Assembly: GCA_029098225.1 (NCBI GenBank) | Contig: JAQXNX010000023.1 | Coordinates: forward strand, 1-64,000 | Length of the DNA: 64,000 bases | Source: Spirochaetales bacterium | Lineage (GTDB): Bacteria; Spirochaetota; Spirochaetia; Treponematales; Treponemataceae | Direction: 5' to 3' | Part shown: positions 612 through 63,999 of the stretch, in pieces | How positions within the stretch are numbered: the stretch's first letter is position 1 | Layout of the letters: each line of letters begins with the position of its first letter | Made by a program: the position numbers and the translations under genes | The notes under the pieces: model-generated | The model's input: only the letters and a program-made list of their open reading frames with translations | Told to the model about the DNA's origin: nothing | The model's database searches: none

Positions 612-2273
612 ATGCAATTAAATGGAGCACAGATAGTTATTGAATGTTTGCTTGAGCAGGGCGTTGATACCGTATTTGGATATCCGGGTGGAACAATACT
701 CAATGTATATGATGAGTTATATCAATATCAGGACAGAATAAGACATATACTTACATCACACGAACAGGGTGCGTCGCATGCTGCTGACGGATATGCAAGA
801 GCTACCGGAAGAGTAGGTGTATGTATGGCTACAAGTGGTCCTGGTGCAACTAACCTTATTACAGGTATTGCCACAGCTTATATGGATTCGGTTCCGCTTG
901 TTGCAATAACATGTAATGTTACTGTAGCTGCACTTGGTAAGGACAGCTTCCAGGAGATTGACGTTGCGGGTGTTACATTGCCGATAACCAAGCATAACTT
1001 TATTGTTAAAGATATTAATGAGCTTGCACCAACCATGAGAAGAGCATTCCAGATTGCACAGTCAGGCAGACCGGGACCTGTTCTTGTAGATATTACTAAG
1101 GATGTAACAGCAGCAAAGTGCAAGTTTGAGAAGTGTGAGCCGGTTAAGATTACAAGAGAAGCAGGCAATATCTCTGAGGAAGACTTTGATAAGGTAATTT
1201 ATGCCATTAAAAAAGCTAAGAAACCTGTAATCTTTGTTGGTGGAGGAACTGTAATCTCTAAGGCTGATAAGGAGCTTGCAGAGTTTGTAGAGAAGGTCGA
1301 TGCTCCTGTAACAGATTCTCTTATGGGAAAAGGTGCATTTGATGGAACAAAAGAAAGATATATGGGTATGCTTGGTATGCATGGAACCAAAACAGCTAAC
1401 TTAAGTGTATCTGAATGCGATTTGCTTATAGCAATAGGAACCAGATTCTCTGACAGGGTAATTGGTAATTCCAAGAAATTTGCTCATGAAGCCAAGATTA
1501 TCCATATTGACATTGACCCGGCTGAGATTAATAAGAATATTCGTGTTGACTATAGCATTATTGGTGATGTTAAGCAGGTTCTTGCAATACTTAATGAGAA
1601 GCTTGAGAACCAGTATCATAAGGAGTGGATGGATAAGGTTATGGCTCGTAAGGGTGCATTTCCACTCGTTCACGAAGATGACAGACTTACAGGTCCGGGT
1701 GTTATAGAATATATTGATGAAGTAACCAAGGGAGATGCAATTATTACTACTGATGTAGGACAGCATCAGATGTGGGCTGCACAGTATTATCCTGTATCTG
1801 CTCCAAGAACTTTCTTAACTTCTGGAAGTCTTGGAACAATGGGCTTTGGTTTACCAGTTGCAATTGGTGCTGCCTTGCAGAATCCAAAAAAGAAAATTGT
1901 CTGTATAAGTGGAGATGGTTCTATAATGATGAATATTCAGGAACTTGCAACTCTTGCAGAACAGAATCTTAATGTAACTGTAATTGTATTCCAGAACGGA
2001 ACTTTAGGAATGGTTTACCAGCAGCAAAAATTCCTTTTTGAAAAAAATTACAGCGCATCTGTTTTCTCTAAGGAACCTGATTTACTTTCTATTGCACAGG
2101 GCTTTGGAATTCAGGCAATAGACGGCGATAAGGATTCTTTGTGGTATGAAAAAGCCTTTGCAATGAATAAGGAAAATAAACCTTGTTTTGTACGCTTTAT
2201 GGTTGGTTCAGAAGAAAATGTACTTCCTTTTGTTCCAGGCGGAAAAGCCAATATTGATTCTATAAGAAATTAA
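612..2273 (+). CDS. ilvB: acetolactate synthase large subunit (possibly chimeric)
   Basis: ThDP-dependent acetolactate synthase, first common step of valine/isoleucine synthesis; 553 residues, usual length. N-terminal ThDP domain has FGYPGG and the catalytic-Glu motif SHEQGASHAADGYA; the C-terminal part has the ThDP/metal motif starting GDGSIMMN, although the final NN of that motif reads QN. Start chosen at 612 behind a purine-rich GAGGGG. No small regulatory subunit (ilvN) or ilvC follows; the convergent next gene ends 2 bp away. Up to about base 1760 codons resemble the upstream ilvD (AGA for Arg, AAG for Lys) and the protein looks clostridial. From about 1890 codons (AAA, GAA) and protein (blocks LGMVYQQQKF and NVLPFVPGGKANID) look like the Treponema part of the window. 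The switch lies in the strongly conserved PRTFLTSG...GFGLP block. Confidence 0.93.
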   Translation: MQLNGAQIVIECLLEQGVDTVFGYPGGTILNVYDELYQYQDRIRHILTSHEQGASHAADGYARATGRVGVCMATSGPGATNLITGIATAYMDSVPLVAITCNVTVAALGKDSFQEIDVAGVTLPITKHNFIVKDINELAPTMRRAFQIAQSGRPGPVLVDITKDVTAAKCKFEKCEPVKITREAGNISEEDFDKVIYAIKKAKKPVIFVGGGTVISKADKELAEFVEKVDAPVTDSLMGKGAFDGTKERYMGMLGMHGTKTANLSVSECDLLIAIGTRFSDRVIGNSKKFAHEAKIIHIDIDPAEINKNIRVDYSIIGDVKQVLAILNEKLENQYHKEWMDKVMARKGAFPLVHEDDRLTGPGVIEYIDEVTKGDAIITTDVGQHQMWAAQYYPVSAPRTFLTSGSLGTMGFGLPVAIGAALQNPKKKIVCISGDGSIMMNIQELATLAEQNLNVTVIVFQNGTLGMVYQQQKFLFEKNYSASVFSKEPDLLSIAQGFGIQAIDGDKDSLWYEKAFAMNKENKPCFVRFMVGSEENVLPFVPGGKANIDSIRN

Positions 2274-2275
2274 TT

Positions 2276-4759
2276 TTACTGCTTGCAGATTGTAATAAAT
2301 GAAAATTCGCTGTTCCAGTCGAATATAGTTTTTTCACAGCTTGCAAGCAAAAGATTTTTAATCTTAAAAAGATTTTCTTCGCCAATTGCCATTTTCATTT
2401 TTTCGGTGTAAGCAGATTCTTCCGAAGAAAACCATTTTTCTATTTCTGCAACAGAAATTCTTTTTTTCTCTGTAAGAATTTTGCTTTCGGCTTTTACAGA
2501 TAATCCTTTTTTTCGGAAGGTATTTGCTATATAAACTCCGTCCCAGGAGAAAAGAGGATTATCTCTGTCTTCAAAAAATTCTTCTTCTGCTTCCTGAAGC
2601 TTATCTAAAACTTCATTCATAGTCTTTGAATTTTCTTCCCCAAGAATCTGTTTGCGTACCAGATTACTGATCCTCTGTCCGTGACATGGAATTTTCTGAG
2701 AAATAATAACTTTCCAGTCTGCAGCAAGCGGACTTTCGTATTGAAAATTTTCGTCTTCAGAGTTGAAGTCTTTATCTGAATCTTCTTCTTCGCTGTAATG
2801 CTTTTGTGGTGTTAATACTCCAGATAAAGAATCTGCAAGTGCAATTATTGAAGATTCAGAGGCAAACGGATCTGTAAAGAAAATTCTGTCAAAAACAGCT
2901 CCAGCATACTGAAAATTTACAAGTACATTATAAAAATCTTTTTGAGTTAAAAAGTCCTGAGAAATTGACTGACCGCGGAAATTTAATATCGGGCGATCCA
3001 GAGAATTCAGTGTCCTTCCATATTGTTCAAGAATCTGTTTTCCTTTTTCTGTTCTGCAAACACCACATGTAACTCCTTCCGGAGTTTTACGTGCAATTTC
3101 CCAGAGTAAAAGGCCGTTATCTGCATTCCAGATAAGGCAGCGGTGATGTCTCCGTAAATCTGCCATCTGAGTCATTGTATCTCTAATTGAAAGAAGAAAT
3201 TCTGCCCGGTTTGTATCCAGCCTTTGCCGCCAGAATCTGTCTGCGCGTTCAAGAGCAACTTCTTTAGAAGGATCTTTTGGACTGAATGTAAGATTTTCTT
3301 CCGTTTTTGGATTATTTTTAAAATGCTCTTTTATCCACCATTGAGAAATCTGGCTTTCTCCAAACTCCGATTTTTCTTCCGGATTCTCAGGATTTTCTTT
3401 TTCAAGAATTGCTGCAATCTGTAATTCTCTTCTGGAAAGCACATCATTCCTGATTTTTTCCTCGTAACCTTGAGTGCTTGGAGTATAAAAAACTTTTCCC
3501 ATTAAAGCATCCGGCAGATACTGCTGGGCAACCCAATGATCGCGATATGCGTGAGGGTAGAGATATCCGTTCCCGTGACCAAAGCCTTCTGCATCACGGC
3601 TTCCATCTTTTAAATGATTTGGAACTTCTACGTCTTCCTTTTCTACAGCAGACAGAGCATCAAAAAAGGCCATTGAACTGTTAGATTTTGGCGCGGTAGA
3701 AAGATATAAAGCTGCATGTGCAAGAAAATATCTGCCTTCAGGCAGTCCAACCCGATCAAAAGCTGCTGCGCAGGCATTTACAATTGAAATAGCATTTGGA
3801 TCTGCAAGGCCTGTATCTTCGCATGAAGAAATGAGCATTCTTCTAAAAATAAAATGCGGATCTTCTCCTGCAGCGACCATTCTTGCAAGCCAATACATAG
3901 CTGCATCAGGGTCTCTTCCCCGCAGACTTTTTATAAATGCGCTTATTATATCGTAGTGATAGTCACCATCCCGGTCATATAAAATAACTTTTTTCTGAAT
4001 TGATTCTTCAGCAGTTTCTCTAGAAATATAAATTGTGCTTCCATGAGCAGGTTCAGGAGGATTTCCTTTAGGATTCCATTTTTCGGGAGTAGTTTCTACA
4101 GCAAGCTCAAGAGCATTTAAAAGTGAACGTGCATCGCCGTTAGCTGTTTCTATTAAATGTTCCAAAGCTCCATCTTCAAATTCAACCTTCCAGTAGCCGT
4201 AGCCTCTTTCTGTATCTGTAAGAGCCTGAATTGCGGCCTGTTTTAAGTCAGATGAGGTGAGTGGCTTTAACTGAAAAACTCGTGAACGGCTTACAAGCGC
4301 TTTATTAACTTCAAAAAATGGATTTTCGGTAGTTGCTCCAATTAAAATAATTGTTCCGTTTTCTACCCATGGAAGTAATGCATCCTGCTGGCTTTTATTC
4401 CAGCGGTGAACTTCATCAACAAAAAGAATTGTTCTTCTTTGATAAAGATTTTTATAATCATCTGCCTGTTTTATTGCTTCGCGAATATCGCTTACACCAG
4501 TTAATACAGCATTTAGAGTAATAAAATTTGATTTAGTGTGATTTGCAATTACTCTTGCAAGCGTTGTTTTTCCACTGCCGGGAGGACCATAAAAAATTAC
4601 AGAAGTAAGCTGGTCGGCGGCAATTGCTCTTCGCAAAAGTCTTCCTTTTCCAACTATATGATCCTGCCCGATATATTCATCAAGATTTCTTGGCCGCATT
4701 CTGGCCGCAAGCGGTTCTGATTCAAGTTTTATCTGTTCAAATAAAGAGTTCTCAGACAT
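2276..4759 (-). CDS. rarA: RarA/MgsA-family AAA ATPase fused to a methyltransferase-like domain
   Basis: N-terminal ~430 residues are a RarA (MgsA, replication-associated recombination protein A) AAA+ ATPase acting at stalled forks: Walker A GPPGSGKT at 58-65, Walker B ILFVDEVHRW at 111-120, sensor 1 GATTENPF near 136, then the RarA lid and tetramerisation region. Ordinary RarA is about 440 residues; this protein has 827. The extra C-terminal ~380 residues contain a segment reading LIWNADNGLLLWEIARKTPEG that resembles motif I of class I SAM methyltransferases. Such RarA fusions are known from spirochaetes and cyanobacteria, with the C-terminal function unproven. Start ATG at 4759 has no strong Shine-Dalgarno. 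Its 3' end abuts ilvB. ATPase call firm; methyltransferase-like assignment is inference. Confidence 0.88.
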   Translation of the reverse strand: MSENSLFEQIKLESEPLAARMRPRNLDEYIGQDHIVGKGRLLRRAIAADQLTSVIFYGPPGSGKTTLARVIANHTKSNFITLNAVLTGVSDIREAIKQADDYKNLYQRRTILFVDEVHRWNKSQQDALLPWVENGTIILIGATTENPFFEVNKALVSRSRVFQLKPLTSSDLKQAAIQALTDTERGYGYWKVEFEDGALEHLIETANGDARSLLNALELAVETTPEKWNPKGNPPEPAHGSTIYISRETAEESIQKKVILYDRDGDYHYDIISAFIKSLRGRDPDAAMYWLARMVAAGEDPHFIFRRMLISSCEDTGLADPNAISIVNACAAAFDRVGLPEGRYFLAHAALYLSTAPKSNSSMAFFDALSAVEKEDVEVPNHLKDGSRDAEGFGHGNGYLYPHAYRDHWVAQQYLPDALMGKVFYTPSTQGYEEKIRNDVLSRRELQIAAILEKENPENPEEKSEFGESQISQWWIKEHFKNNPKTEENLTFSPKDPSKEVALERADRFWRQRLDTNRAEFLLSIRDTMTQMADLRRHHRCLIWNADNGLLLWEIARKTPEGVTCGVCRTEKGKQILEQYGRTLNSLDRPILNFRGQSISQDFLTQKDFYNVLVNFQYAGAVFDRIFFTDPFASESSIIALADSLSGVLTPQKHYSEEEDSDKDFNSEDENFQYESPLAADWKVIISQKIPCHGQRISNLVRKQILGEENSKTMNEVLDKLQEAEEEFFEDRDNPLFSWDGVYIANTFRKKGLSVKAESKILTEKKRISVAEIEKWFSSEESAYTEKMKMAIGEENLFKIKNLLLASCEKTIFDWNSEFSFITICKQ

Positions 4760-58346: not shown

Positions 58347-58375
58347 TTGTAAAAAACATTTTTTTCCTATATATT
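58347..58375 (+). promoter_or_regulatory. promoter of the RNase II/R gene, leaderless arrangement
   Basis: TTGTAA (58347-58352), 17 bp, TATATT (58370-58375); seven bases separate the -10 from the ATG at 58383 and no Shine-Dalgarno is present. Confidence 0.55.
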
Positions 58376-58382
58376 GTGTTTT

Positions 58383-60284
58383 ATGGATAAATCTTCCCTT
58401 GTACTTTATAAGAATCAAATTGCTGTTATTAATGAAAAGGAAGGCGAAAAATATTTAATTAAATTCTGTACGCAGCCTGCTACTGCTTCCGGAAAAAAGG
58501 CTGTGTATACAGAACAAAAGGTTAGGGAAAAAGATATAATTCCATTTCATCAGGGACCAGCTTCTTTAGAAGCTGTGTTGGCTTATTCTGATGATTCACT
58601 CCCTTCAAAAATACAGGAAACCTACGAGCTTCTTATGTCTGATGAACAGACAGCAACTCAGAAAATTTCTTTAGAAGAGCTTTCTGAGTATGCTCTTGGA
58701 AAATTTTCTGCAGAAGAATCGTGGGCGTTTTATAATGCTGTCTGTTCTTCTGTTTATTTTGTAATTCAAAATGAAGAATTAAAGAATGGAGAAATTTATT
58801 TTCTTCCAAGAACAAATGAGCAGATTGAAGAAATTAATAAAAAGAATTACGAAAAAGAGCATGAGGAAGAAATAAAGAAAGAATTTATAGCACGCTTAAA
58901 GTCAAAAAAACTTAAGCTTCCCGATGATTCACGTTTTATGGGCGAAGTAGAAGCCTTTGCTTTATGCAAAACAGATAAATCAAAAATTCTTTCCGAAGCG
59001 GGCTTCAGTCAGTCTATAGAAAAAGCCCACAAGCTTCTTATTGATACAGGTATCTGGGACATTACAAAAAATCCTTATCCTACGAGACTTGGTTTTTCTT
59101 TTGACTCTGCCAAAGAGCAGCTTGGTCCAATGCCCGAAGAAGAACGAATTGAAATTAAAGGAATTGCATATGCAATAGACAGCGAACATTCTACAGACCC
59201 GGATGATGCCGTTGCCTTTGACGGAGAATATCTTTGGGTTCATATTGCAGATCCGGCTTCTGCTGTTTTACCGGATTCAAAAATTGATGAGGTAGCTCGA
59301 GGCCGTGGAACGACTTTGTACATACCTGAAGGAACTTCCAGAATGTTATGTGAAAGCTGTCTTGAAGATTATGCTCTTGGATTAAAGGAAATCAGCAGAG
59401 CTCTTTCTTTTAGGATAAAGCTGGATTCAGAAAGTCAGATAGAAGAATGCCAGGTAATGAAGACAATTATAAAAGTAAAACGCATGACATACGTTCAGGC
59501 AGAAGAGCAGAAAGAATCTCCTGATTTAAAACCCTTGTTTGAAATTGCAAGAAAAAATAAAGCAAGAAGAGAAGCTAATGGCGCGGTTGTAATTCAAATG
59601 CCGGAAGTTGATATTTGTGTAGATAAAGAAACTAAAAAAGTAACTATAGAACCAGAGCTGCGCTTAGAGTCTAATGATATGATTGCTGAATTAATGATTC
59701 TTGCAGGAGAAGGTGCGGCAAAATTTGCTTTTAAGAATTCAATACCATTTATGTATATAAGTCAGGAAAGTCCGGATTTTCCTTCTAAAATTCCAGAAGG
59801 CTGGGCAGGGCAGTTTGCCATGGTAAAATGCATGAGAAAGCGTTCAGTTGGAATTACTCCAGCATCACATGCAGCTCTGGGACTTTCATTTTACAGTCAG
59901 GTAACTTCGCCTTTAAGACGATACGGTGATTTAATTTCGCATCAGCAGCTTCGTGCTTTTATAGATGGAAGAAGATTGTTAAATAAAGATGAAATGCTTG
60001 AACGCGTAGCTGCAGGTGATGCTGCAAGTCTTGCCGCAAGAAAGGTAAGCCGTCAGAGTGAATTACACTGGAAGCTTGTTTATCTTTTACAGAATCCCGA
60101 AAAAACTTATGAAGCCTTTTGTATAGATAAGCGCGGAAATGATGCTCTTTTTTTAATACCTGCTTTAGATATGCAGACAACAATTAAAAACTGCGCAGAC
60201 CTTGCATTAAACGATAAAAGAATTTTACAGATGAAGAACGTAGATATAACTGTTCAGTCTGTGGATTTTGTTTTTGTAGTCTGA
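58383..60284 (+). CDS. RNase II/R family exoribonuclease
   Basis: 633 residues from the ATG at 58383. The RNB catalytic domain is evident: YAIDSEHSTDPDDAVAFDGE carries the metal-binding Asp set, then WVHIADPASAV and GTTLYIPEGTSRMLCE, and SPLRRYGDLISHQQLRAF near the C-terminal side. The N-terminal third contains poorly conserved RNA-binding segments, and the usual S1 domain at the end is short or diverged. Degrades RNA 3' to 5'. Smaller than typical RNase R (~800), closer to RNase II; symbol left open. Confidence 0.92.
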   Translation: MDKSSLVLYKNQIAVINEKEGEKYLIKFCTQPATASGKKAVYTEQKVREKDIIPFHQGPASLEAVLAYSDDSLPSKIQETYELLMSDEQTATQKISLEELSEYALGKFSAEESWAFYNAVCSSVYFVIQNEELKNGEIYFLPRTNEQIEEINKKNYEKEHEEEIKKEFIARLKSKKLKLPDDSRFMGEVEAFALCKTDKSKILSEAGFSQSIEKAHKLLIDTGIWDITKNPYPTRLGFSFDSAKEQLGPMPEEERIEIKGIAYAIDSEHSTDPDDAVAFDGEYLWVHIADPASAVLPDSKIDEVARGRGTTLYIPEGTSRMLCESCLEDYALGLKEISRALSFRIKLDSESQIEECQVMKTIIKVKRMTYVQAEEQKESPDLKPLFEIARKNKARREANGAVVIQMPEVDICVDKETKKVTIEPELRLESNDMIAELMILAGEGAAKFAFKNSIPFMYISQESPDFPSKIPEGWAGQFAMVKCMRKRSVGITPASHAALGLSFYSQVTSPLRRYGDLISHQQLRAFIDGRRLLNKDEMLERVAAGDAASLAARKVSRQSELHWKLVYLLQNPEKTYEAFCIDKRGNDALFLIPALDMQTTIKNCADLALNDKRILQMKNVDITVQSVDFVFVV

Positions 60285-60302: not shown

Positions 60303-60824
60303 TTAGAAAAATACACCGGATTCAATTTCGCTGTATAAAGCTTCGTAAAGAGTTGCTTTATCTGTGTTAGTGTCTCTAATTGTTTTTGCCATTCTTTTTG
60401 CAAGCTTTAATAAAACTCTGTAGCCTAAAAGTGGTTCTTTATCGCATACATCTAAGAATTTTGTGCTGGAAAGAGCAATACATTTGCAATCGGTAATAGC
60501 TTTTACAGTTGCAGTTCTTGGATCATCGCTGATTAAGGCAGTTTCTCCAAAGAAAACATTATCTTCGCTTTTTAGGTCGGCCAGGGCAATTGTATCTCCG
60601 GCAGGAGTTTTACGGCAGATATGAACAGAACCTTCATATAGAATGTAAAACATATCACCGAATTTTCCTTCTGCAATTATTACATCTCCTTTCTGATAAG
60701 TTTCAATAGTCATGCTTTCATAAACTTCTTTAAGAATGCGTCTGTCGTTTTCGTCGTTAATATTAAAATCAGAAAAGAGTTGAATCTGTACCAGCTTTGG
60801 TAAAACTTCATTAAAATTTTCCAT
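60303..60824 (-). CDS. cyclic-nucleotide-binding domain protein
   Basis: 173 residues: a single CNBD of the CRP/PKA fold with YQKGDVIIAEGKFGDMFYIL and the phosphate-binding cassette FFGETALISDDPRTATV at 91-107, including Glu94 and Arg103, so it should bind cAMP or a related nucleotide. No DNA-binding HTH; the protein ends after the cassette and C-helices. It starts two bases after the stop of the channel-like gene, so the pair is translated from one message and may form a functional unit. Confidence 0.85.
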   Translation of the reverse strand: MENFNEVLPKLVQIQLFSDFNINDENDRRILKEVYESMTIETYQKGDVIIAEGKFGDMFYILYEGSVHICRKTPAGDTIALADLKSEDNVFFGETALISDDPRTATVKAITDCKCIALSSTKFLDVCDKEPLLGYRVLLKLAKRMAKTIRDTNTDKATLYEALYSEIESGVFF

Positions 60825-60826
60825 TT

Positions 60827-62050
60827 TTATTTCCTTGTTTTAGAACCTGCTTCTGAAGCTTCAGAAAGTAAAGACTGCCCTCGAACTAAAATAGCCTTTG
60901 TATTTTTTTGAATTATATAATCCTGTGGAGGAGTTAAAACAGGTTCATTGCTTTTTAAGGTTTTTACTTTCTTTAAATTATCAACAATCATTTTTATATC
61001 TGGATTTTTCTGAGCTTCCCGCAGGGCATCTTTTCTTCGCTGATGAAAGTTTCCTGTGTTTAAAAGAAGTCCTACAAGAACGCCATTAACATTTCCTTTA
61101 AGCTCAAGATGTTTTTCATAGTCACCGTAGCTCTTTCCAATAAATGCCATAGGAATATCTTCTATTATAATACCTGTATCTGCGTCGTCGCTGATTAAAG
61201 CTTTAATAACATTGCTGTAGCCCATTCCAGAAGAAGCAGTTGCAAGCAGACTGTGCTCATAATCCTGTGTAAGAATAATTTCATCACAGTGTGCCATTTC
61301 CAGATGCTTCTGAAATTTTGCATCTAACAGTTCGGCTGCAATATAAATTCCCGGATTAATATTTTCCATAGTTAAAACTGCAAGAACAGTGCGGCTGTCA
61401 ATTTCGAGGTCTGAATATTTTTTTGAGCGGTCGCAGATTACAAGCGCTCTTTCTGCAGTTTCGATTTTTGCTTTTTTAAGAATAGTTTCGTCTGCAAAAT
61501 CTCCCGAAACGTAATTAATTTCTTTAAATCGTGATTGTGAGCGAATCTGTTCAATCTGCTCAGTTGCGTCGTTAATTAAAACAATCATATCCGGGGTAAT
61601 ATCAGGATTTGTTGTTAGAACTGAATCCAGAATTTTTTCGAATCCCGGACGCCATCCGCAAAGTAAAAAATGACCTTTAATATTCTTCAATTTTTTTAAC
61701 CCCTTATTTTTTTGCATTTGTAAATCCATAAAATAGGACGCAAGCTTACCGGTTACAGCACTGAATAAAAGCATTCCAAGCACAAGAAGAACAAGAGCAG
61801 ACATTCTGCCCGGAACAGATTTTACACAATAATCAAAATATGCGGCAAAAACAGCAACTAATGTAAACCATACGGAATCGAACATAGATTCAATTCCGCT
61901 TTCTGTTTTAGTTTCTGAATGAAAAACAACAATTGTAGCGATTGAGATTATTAATAGAATTAAAATCCAGATATAAGTTAATGGATTTTTTAATGCATAT
62001 TTTATGTTGCGAATAAAATGTTTTGATTTTGCCTGCAACTTTTTACTCAT
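60827..62050 (-). CDS. ion-channel-like protein with RCK (TrkA-N) domains and degenerate filter
   Basis: 407 residues. N-terminal membrane helix (24-44), pore-loop region (58-82) and second helix (83-107), then two TrkA-N/RCK-like domains (HFLLCGWRPGFEKILDSV near 127 and a second from ~270), as in two-helix K+ channels and the Castor/Pollux-like group. The selectivity filter, aligned on Asp73 and the following Gly81-Arg82, reads FAAYFD where K+ channels read TVGYGD, so both glycines are lost. The ATG has a TATATT six bases upstream and no ribosome site. Followed directly by the CNBD gene. Confidence 0.8.
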   Translation of the reverse strand: MSKKLQAKSKHFIRNIKYALKNPLTYIWILILLIISIATIVVFHSETKTESGIESMFDSVWFTLVAVFAAYFDYCVKSVPGRMSALVLLVLGMLLFSAVTGKLASYFMDLQMQKNKGLKKLKNIKGHFLLCGWRPGFEKILDSVLTTNPDITPDMIVLINDATEQIEQIRSQSRFKEINYVSGDFADETILKKAKIETAERALVICDRSKKYSDLEIDSRTVLAVLTMENINPGIYIAAELLDAKFQKHLEMAHCDEIILTQDYEHSLLATASSGMGYSNVIKALISDDADTGIIIEDIPMAFIGKSYGDYEKHLELKGNVNGVLVGLLLNTGNFHQRRKDALREAQKNPDIKMIVDNLKKVKTLKSNEPVLTPPQDYIIQKNTKAILVRGQSLLSEASEAGSKTRK

Positions 62051-62123: not shown

Positions 62124-63116
62124 TTAGCAGACATACTTTTGGTGAGAATATCTTACATTGGACTGCTGAACATTAGCATATCGCAATGTAGTGTCTATTT
62201 TAGTATGTCCAAGCAGAACTTGAACCTGTTCAATAGGCATTCCTTTGTCTATAGCGCGAGTTGCCATAGTACGGCGGAATCTGTGCGGATGAACATTTTC
62301 TATATCAGTTTTAGCTCCTATTTCTCTAATCATTTTTTCTATTGAGTTTACAGAGAGTCTTGTATATGTTCCATGCTTTGATTTTTTGTGAAAAGAAACA
62401 AATAGAGCTTTGTTTTTATCCTTCCGTGTCTTTAAATAGTTTTCAAGTTCTATTTTAGTACGGACATCAAAATATGTTTCTCGCTGTTTTGCACCCTTTC
62501 CAAAAACAATGCAGGTCCTGGAGTTTAAGTTTATAGATGAACGGTTGAGATTTACAAGTTCACTTACTCTTATACCAGAAGAAAGCAATATATCTATAAT
62601 TGCCAGATTTCTTTTGTTTTCAAAAACAGTTTTTCTAATAATTTCAATTTCTTCATCGGAAAACGCTGCTTTAATAACCGTTGGAGTTTTAATTTTATGA
62701 ATTCTTTTCATAGGACTTTTTAAGATAAAATCTTCTTCTTCAAGCCATTTATAAAAAGTTGATAAAATTCTTCGTACAGTATCTAATGTAACATTTGAGC
62801 AGTTATTCATTTTCTGATAATTTATAAGATAATCTCTGATTATATTAGTATTGACAGAACAGATATCGCATTTGATATTTTTTTCAAAGAAGGTTAAGGT
62901 AGACAAATAATATTCTTCTGTTCGTTTAGAGCATCCTTCTATTCTTTTTGCGCTTATAAAAAGGTTTACAAGATTTTTATTGTTTTTTGATTTTTTTAAG
63001 ACACTTTGTTTTGTTTCCAATACTTCTAATAGAACTTTTTCAAGTTTTTTAAGTTGTTCAGGAAGAAGTTCTTCAGACATTTTTGATTTGATTATGTTGA
63101 TAATTTCTGTATTCAT
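62124..63116 (-). CDS. tyrosine recombinase (XerC/D-like integrase)
   Basis: 330 residues from the ATG at 63116 with GGAG seven bases before; an in-frame ATG at 63128 contains that site. N-terminal SAM-like core-binding domain (about 45-140) and C-terminal catalytic domain with all active-site residues: Arg183, Lys210, His278, Arg281, His304 and Tyr313 (LLGHTKIDTTLRYAN). An unusual ~45-residue charged helical N-terminus precedes it. Not the housekeeping XerC/D by context; an integrase of a mobile or phase-variable element is likely. Preceded by a 7-bp inverted repeat overlapping its start. Confidence 0.9.
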   Translation of the reverse strand: MNTEIINIIKSKMSEELLPEQLKKLEKVLLEVLETKQSVLKKSKNNKNLVNLFISAKRIEGCSKRTEEYYLSTLTFFEKNIKCDICSVNTNIIRDYLINYQKMNNCSNVTLDTVRRILSTFYKWLEEEDFILKSPMKRIHKIKTPTVIKAAFSDEEIEIIRKTVFENKRNLAIIDILLSSGIRVSELVNLNRSSINLNSRTCIVFGKGAKQRETYFDVRTKIELENYLKTRKDKNKALFVSFHKKSKHGTYTRLSVNSIEKMIREIGAKTDIENVHPHRFRRTMATRAIDKGMPIEQVQVLLGHTKIDTTLRYANVQQSNVRYSHQKYVC

Positions 63117-63117
63117 A

Positions 63118-63164
63118 TGTATCTCCATTCGATAATAAGATTTACTTTTATATCGGAAGATACA
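63118..63164. repeat. inverted repeat at the recombinase start
   Basis: TGTATCT (63118-63124) and AGATACA (63158-63164), with inner CGAT/ATCG matches, cover the recombinase ribosome site. Could be a recombination site or an autoregulatory operator. Confidence 0.4.
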
Positions 63165-63207
63165 GATAATTAAGGAGTATTAGCTTATTAATTCGAATGG
63201 CTTCTTT

Positions 63208-63999
63208 TTAATTTTTTAAAGTCTTCTCAAAAATAGATTTCATGTTTTCTTCTGAAAGTGGAATAAAAAGATTTTCATTTTTATTATTGCCACCTTGTTT
63301 TGCAAGCGATATGTAGAGGCTTCTAAGATTATTGTTTGGTTTTACATATTTTAGATGGACAAATCGGTTAGAAGAATTTGTCGTAGAAAAGCAGCATTCA
63401 GCCTTATCTAAAATTTCAAGGGGATGAAGATTATTAGCAGTGAAAATTATTTGTCCACTACCGTTCTCTGAAAAAACTTTTAGGAAAACATCTAAAACTA
63501 ATTCATTAATACTTGAATCTAATTCATCAATTACTAAAAGTACAGAAGGATTTCCATAAGCAAAAATTAAAATATTTACAAGCGAAATGATTTTTTTTAT
63601 GCCAAGACTTTCATATTTTATTGGAACTTCAAGATTATCTTTAATTGTAAAAACCTCGTAATAATTTTCTAACATATTAGGATCTGAATTAATACTGTCT
63701 TTTATTCCTAATATCTTTTTAAAAGAAAGCTTTGTTTCAGGGCAAAGAGAAATGATAATATCGTTGAATTTATTTATGAATTCATCAAATGAACCTTCTT
63801 TTGGTTCCAAAGCTTTTGTCGGTCCGTCAATGTTTAAAGAAAAGTAATTTATAGCTCCATTAGAAAAGACTTTTTGATTTGGTAATATAACAGGAATTGT
63901 TTTTGCATTAACTAATCCCCCGTTTATAAAATTATCTGTAATGACAAAAAAATAATTTTTTGCATAATCATTAAATATTTTTAGATAATCAAGAATTGA
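63208..63999 (-). CDS. AAA-type ATPase (AAA_15/AAA_21-like), 5' part outside the window
   Basis: The frame is open from base 63999, so at least 263 residues of the C-terminal part are present; the start and Walker A lie beyond the window. Visible: signature-like ESLGIKKIISL, Walker B LLVIDELDSSINE, and FTANNLHPLE as in the switch region of SMC-like ABC ATPases used in abortive-infection and other defence proteins. The ATPase ends with an Asn/Lys-rich tail. It lies 91 bp before the recombinase on the same strand. A defence role is only a possibility. Confidence 0.75.
   Translation of the reverse strand, partial: SILDYLKIFNDYAKNYFFVITDNFINGGLVNAKTIPVILPNQKVFSNGAINYFSLNIDGPTKALEPKEGSFDEFINKFNDIIISLCPETKLSFKKILGIKDSINSDPNMLENYYEVFTIKDNLEVPIKYESLGIKKIISLVNILIFAYGNPSVLLVIDELDSSINELVLDVFLKVFSENGSGQIIFTANNLHPLEILDKAECCFSTTNSSNRFVHLKYVKPNNNLRSLYISLAKQGGNNKNENLFIPLSEENMKSIFEKTLKN

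Follow-up and report, generated by a model that had tools for sequence, protein, structure and literature searches.

The textbook example of a channel controlled by cyclic nucleotides has its sensor fused to the pore. In the one-chain channels, six transmembrane helices (6TM), a C-linker, and a cyclic-nucleotide-binding domain (CNBD) lie on a single polypeptide (PMC4308110), and the eukaryotic CNG channels have an altered K+ filter, TIGE (PMC10761061). In MthK and Slo/BK, two transmembrane pore helices (2TM) are followed by an RCK gating domain. The RCK (KTN) K+ transport proteins KefC and KefB need soluble subunits of ~20 kDa from the same operon, KefF and KefG, for full activity (PMC10224563), and the RCK gating assembly TM1088A/TM1088B is formed from the products of two adjacent genes (PMC4380455); both are precedents for subunits acting in trans on RCK assemblies.

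The locus analyzed here lies in a stretch of 64,000 nucleotides (the window, i.e. the whole stretch of DNA that was analyzed) and consists of a channel-like gene and a separate CNBD gene. The channel-like protein resembles MthK and Slo/BK in having 2TM pore helices and then an RCK gating domain, MthK being the best match in both sequence and fold, and differs from them in its separate CNBD partner, in a helical insert in the RCK C-lobe, and in the loss of TVGYGD in the window's clade. Like SthK of Spirochaeta thermophila, MlotiK1, CNG, and HCN, the pair combines a pore with a CNBD whose phosphate-binding cassette is the same, and a changed K+ filter is a further point in common between the window's clade and the eukaryotic CNG channels; here, however, a 2TM pore is joined to an RCK ring, the C-linker is missing, and a second protein carries the CNBD. 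Because it has neither 6TM nor C-linker and carries its CNBD on another chain, the pair is not a member of the CNG/HCN/SthK family. The comparison with one-chain cyclic-nucleotide-gated channels made in the sequence-only reading is apt as an analogy, but pore and gating ring are of the MthK/Slo-type lineage, not the CNG/HCN-type. As in the Kef systems, an RCK protein has a soluble partner from the same operon; Kef, however, is a transporter whose KefF/KefG partners are oxidoreductases encoded upstream, whereas the CNBD partner is encoded downstream. In the two-subunit TrkA ring of TM1088A/TM1088B, both subunits are RCK domains and no CNBD is present.

Architecture of the two genes

The channel-like gene (60827 to 62050, minus strand; 407 aa) was delimited as an open reading frame from an ATG at 62050 to a TAA at 60829-60827, and was assigned a 2TM pore and RCK architecture from Pfam, its sequence match to MthK, AlphaFold2 modeling, and fold comparison. 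The model (pLDDT 84.3) has helices at residues 23-46, 56-69, and 79-115, i.e. two transmembrane helices with a pore helix between them, which is the MthK-type layout. TM1 (aa 23-46) is encoded by 61913 to 61984, the pore helix with its altered filter (aa 56-78) by 61817 to 61885, and TM2 (aa 79-115) by 61706 to 61816; the Rossmann-like RCK N-lobe (aa 125-285; 61196 to 61678) and the RCK C-lobe (aa 290-393; 60872 to 61183) follow, all on the minus strand, the N-lobe being defined from Pfam and the C-lobe from the model, both with the structural match to the MthK RCK domain. Pfam detects Slo-like_RCK (9.4e-11) and TrkA_N (9.8e-9) above cut-off, both C-terminal to TM2, and Ion_trans_2 below cut-off (18.7 vs 22.5 bits).

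MthK is the nearest relative of solved structure by sequence (1e-11), and with the family profile MthK together with Slo1 is closest. Foldseek matches the model to MthK at 1.7e-17; the VIA superposition gives Z 20.0 and an rmsd of 4.8 Å over 305 residues (model residues 22-393), and the RCK portion (126-393, N-lobe plus C-lobe) gives Z 17.8 and 2.6 Å over 208 residues. The two-helix pore and the RCK fold that had been read from the sequence are therefore both present, but as a single RCK domain made of an N-lobe and a C-lobe, not several. Met112, at the end of TM2 (61706-61720), aligns with the internal start, Met107, of MthK. An internal start at this position could yield a free RCK subunit; Met112 is not conserved across the channel family.

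Two bases (60826-60825) separate the channel stop from the start of the CNBD gene (60303 to 60824, minus strand; 173 aa), as the sequence-only reading had it. The encoded protein, recognized from its open reading frame, Pfam, and predicted structure, consists of a single cNMP_binding domain (Pfam 8e-21; aa 41-129; 60438 to 60704), and its model (pLDDT 94.5) matches the CNBDs of CRP, PKG, and HCN. The phosphate-binding cassette FFGETALISDDPRTATV spans aa 91-107 (60504 to 60554, minus strand). The window's cassette, FGETALISDDPRTATV, is canonical and keeps Gly93 along with Glu94 and Arg103, in agreement with the earlier claim of a stand-alone CNBD retaining its key Glu and Arg; among the paired CNBDs, Gly is found in 115/115, Glu in 110/115, and Arg in 111/115. 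No DNA-binding helix-turn-helix was found in the 173-aa protein, which has no second Pfam domain and whose model ends in one long helix, so a CRP/FNR-type transcription regulator is ruled out.

Just upstream of the pair, the region 62124-63810 (minus strand) holds a XerC/D-like tyrosine recombinase gene and an AAA ATPase-like fragment, and is perhaps the edge of a mobile element. On the other side, convergent with the CNBD gene, 58374-60284 (plus strand) encodes a 636-aa RNase II/R-type exoribonuclease with a double HTH domain, which scores far under the RNase R and RNase II equivalog cut-offs. A promoter scan gave nothing above chance.

Pairing across genomes and paired-only elements

We searched 393 Spirochaetota genomes for both genes. 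The channel search gave a match at E <= 1e-6 in 121 genomes, 107 of them with this family, and the CNBD-alignment search gave an ortholog in 105, using a cut-off of E 2e-40 that sits at a modest gap (next match 3.8e-37). The CNBD orthologs extend to the end of the profile (positions 164-166), whereas other CNBDs end near 148-157. Both genes occur in 104 genomes, about a quarter of those searched, and neither in 285; three genomes have only the channel and one only the CNBD. All four exceptions can be put down to pseudogenes or truncation: decayed remnants of both genes remain in G293, the CNBD frame beside the channel is truncated in G003, and the CNBD is cut by the contig end in G025 and lies at a contig edge in G225. 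In G293 (locus L103), the two genes seem to have decayed together.

In nearly all of the ~100 loci fetched, from dozens of families, the CNBD gene lies directly downstream of the channel gene, often with an overlap of a few bases. Channel-CNBD-channel-CNBD tandems occur in G283 and G350, and channel-channel-CNBD tandems in G328, G221, G375, and G215; G289 retains both genes with the CNBD on a different contig from its channel genes. Outside the spirochaetes, named genomes were scanned as well, and the pair recurs in the same order in Kryptonia, Syntrophales, Marinimicrobia, Calditrichaceae, Denitrovibrio, Nitratiruptor, and Desulfobacterales, as well as in one Lachnospiraceae MAG that is possibly mis-binned. 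The conserved pairing proposed as a check in the sequence-only reading is thus borne out: the pairing is real, and chance adjacency is ruled out by the co-occurrence and the phylum-wide gene order. Hitchhiking in a larger conserved block is ruled out as well, no third conserved neighbor having been found (the commonest neighbor cluster occurs in 8/96 loci). No one-chain fusion of channel and CNBD was seen in any locus examined, the genes being separate throughout. Read-through fusion was also rejected: the CNBD start shares the reading frame of the channel stop in several relatives (TAG in L003-L006; TAA in L008, L013, and L016) but not in others, including the window, so the shared frame is likely due to chance. 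The open-access literature searched held no account of the pair, which does not by itself prove novelty.

Each partner carries an element that is restricted to paired copies. In the channel, this is a helical hairpin in the C-lobe (aa 333-366; 60953 to 61054, minus strand; AlphaFold2 helices 335-347 and 352-363), within a stretch of ~42 residues between two strands that has a median of 7 residues in copies without an adjoining CNBD gene. Of the channel copies with a CNBD gene next downstream, 110/111 have the insert, against 2/55 of those without one; these counts are not probabilities, related sequences being non-independent. The exceptions are L018_1462 (from G289, with its unlinked CNBD), L013_2723 (an unrelated, shorter stretch), and L037 (split by a frameshift). 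Insert-free copies include the upstream members of channel-channel-CNBD tandems within the window's own clade. In the tandem filterless channels of L013, L014, L015, L017, and L018 (G328, G221, G375, G215, and G289), the insert is absent from the upstream copy and kept in the downstream copy; it is possible that such tandems form heteromeric channels.

In the CNBD protein, alignments and the structure model define a C-terminal tail helix (aa 152-170; 60315 to 60371, minus strand) that extends the C-helix (131-170 in the model), is found only in channel-paired CNBDs, and carries near-invariant L159, A162, and L163. The A and L of its L..AL motif are each present in 106/109 sequences, a 44-sequence CNBD alignment has just four invariant columns, with A162 and L163 among them, and the motif is absent from all 18 unpaired CNBD matches examined. 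Among residue pairs with high inter-protein mutual information, those joining insert and tail are the most over-represented (23 of the top 100 pairs, and 7 vs 1.0 expected within one subfamily), a signal that is weak and partly phylogenetic (subfamily effect). Since each element is found only with the other partner, insert and tail are likely the docking surfaces, as predicted from these sequence patterns.

The altered pore of the window's clade

In an alignment of 111 homologs, the pore of the window protein reads VAVFA-AYFDYCV in place of VTxTTVGYGDxxP; its filter, AVFA-AYFDY, lacks GYG and is one residue shorter than the TVGYGD type. Homologs outside the window's clade, in the phylum and beyond, have TVGYGD or TTGYGD, whereas the clade itself (21 genomes, one family) has A-x-F/x-A and then A/G/N-Y-F/Y-D/E. 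The filter loss maps to one clade on the tree, where a single ancestral change removed the filter. Because the defining TVGYGD-type filter is absent, we do not call the window protein a K+ channel, and because this change took the filter away, the clade's pore probably has a selectivity other than for K+. The CNBD tree shows no clear split between the partners of filterless and filter-bearing channels.

It could also be that the filterless pore does not conduct at all, the window protein being a membrane receptor or a dominant-negative partner and the nucleotide signal going elsewhere. The missing GYG and the one-residue deletion would fit this, as would the tandem copies of some genomes, including the adjoining filterless and TVGYGD copies of G283. 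Constraint on the pore speaks against it. Among the closest relatives, pore plus TM2 has a dN of 0.012 at a gene dS of ~1.1, i.e. a dN/dS of 0.010 (0.004 for the filter alone), compared with 0.042 for the RCK N-lobe, 0.067 for the C-lobe, and 0.085 for TM1, these values coming from nine non-independent pairs with dS near saturation. No other part of the gene is as constrained as pore plus TM2, which is under strong purifying selection; a pseudogene or a decaying pore is ruled out by these ratios. The G-Y-F/Y-D/E pattern, moreover, recurs across the clade, and the altered channel is the sole Ion_trans_2 match in the window's genome, so that no canonical K+ channel of the family, and hence no partner to poison, was detected alongside. 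We consider a non-conducting protein unlikely.

Other arrangements of the membrane domain were observed. In G364 (L021/L108; L108:3918-5501, minus strand), inside the filterless clade, the 2TM pore has been swapped for a six-helix voltage-gated-type module with TVGYGD (Ion_trans 2.7e-32), with the same RCK and CNBD partner. In G283 (L036:2797-4014 and 1125-2291, minus strand), the filterless and TVGYGD channels each have their own CNBD gene. A related six-helix RCK channel of ~493 aa (L104:2717-4198 and L105:2644-4128, both minus strand) has no CNBD partner and no GYG, with LIGFTDDKP at the filter.

A proposed sensor in trans

Our favored reading, which we hold to be fairly probable, is that the pair forms one unit, an RCK channel regulated by cyclic nucleotides through a sensor in trans, and that the pore of the window's clade is probably non-K+ selective. 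In the model that we infer for the complex, its docking site, its nucleotide binding, its direction of gating, and the ion passed, the two-helix pore would be a tetramer with an RCK gating ring, joined in trans by the soluble cyclic-nucleotide-binding subunit, whose tail helix (L159..A162-L163) would dock on the helical hairpin of the RCK C-lobe. cAMP or cGMP would bind in the CNBD beta-roll, clamped by Glu94 and Arg103, and binding would move the C-helix, change the gating ring, and open or close the pore. The window's genome encodes 12 class III cyclase domains and four CNBD-bearing proteins, and the cyclases could supply the ligand. In most carriers, with TVGYGD or TTGYGD, the pore would be K+-selective. 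For the window's clade, a more specific version is possible, if doubtful: a cation channel gated by cyclic nucleotides, not selective for K+ and provided with a detachable sensor subunit, that would have arrived at the type of device seen in eukaryotic CNG channels by its own route (2TM/RCK channel, CNBD in trans, GYG lost with a one-residue deletion) and would convert cAMP or cGMP into Na+ or Ca2+ entry or a voltage change.

Alternatively, the channel may be gated by a ligand of the RCK domain itself (an ion or a nucleotide, as in MthK or GsuK), with the CNBD protein acting not as a sensor but as an obligate subunit for structure or assembly. This is favored by the general ability of RCK domains to bind ligands of their own (PMC6957272) and by genus g2 (L026-L029), whose CNBDs have Glu replaced by Lys and Arg by His in the cassette while the pair and a TVGYGD channel are retained. 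Because this genus has lost both cassette residues yet keeps the pair, nucleotide sensing is not required in every member, and its CNBD protein may be constitutive or purely structural. As a general account it is improbable, given the conservation of the cassette Glu and Arg across phyla and the 12 cyclases of the genome. That the genes are merely co-transcribed, the CNBD protein regulating something else, is most improbable: bacterial CNBD proteins do have many targets and operon partners need not touch, but both genes are kept in 104 genomes without another conserved neighbor, G289 keeps both unlinked, and the paired-only elements are reciprocal.

In summary, the channel-like gene travels with a separate CNBD gene, which suggests a two-part cyclic-nucleotide-controlled channel in this gut-type spirochaete. 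The predicted docking elements and the conserved filterless pore go beyond the sequence-only reading, in which the filter loss was not reported. With a widespread split version carrying candidate docking elements on both partners, the coupling of sensor to pore could be dismantled and rebuilt from purified pieces. The filter-loss clade offers a natural experiment, a selectivity change of a K+ pore under strong selection, for which close relatives that keep TVGYGD can serve as controls. If true, the proposed channel would give cyclic nucleotides a concrete electrical output in treponemes, which carry many cyclases.
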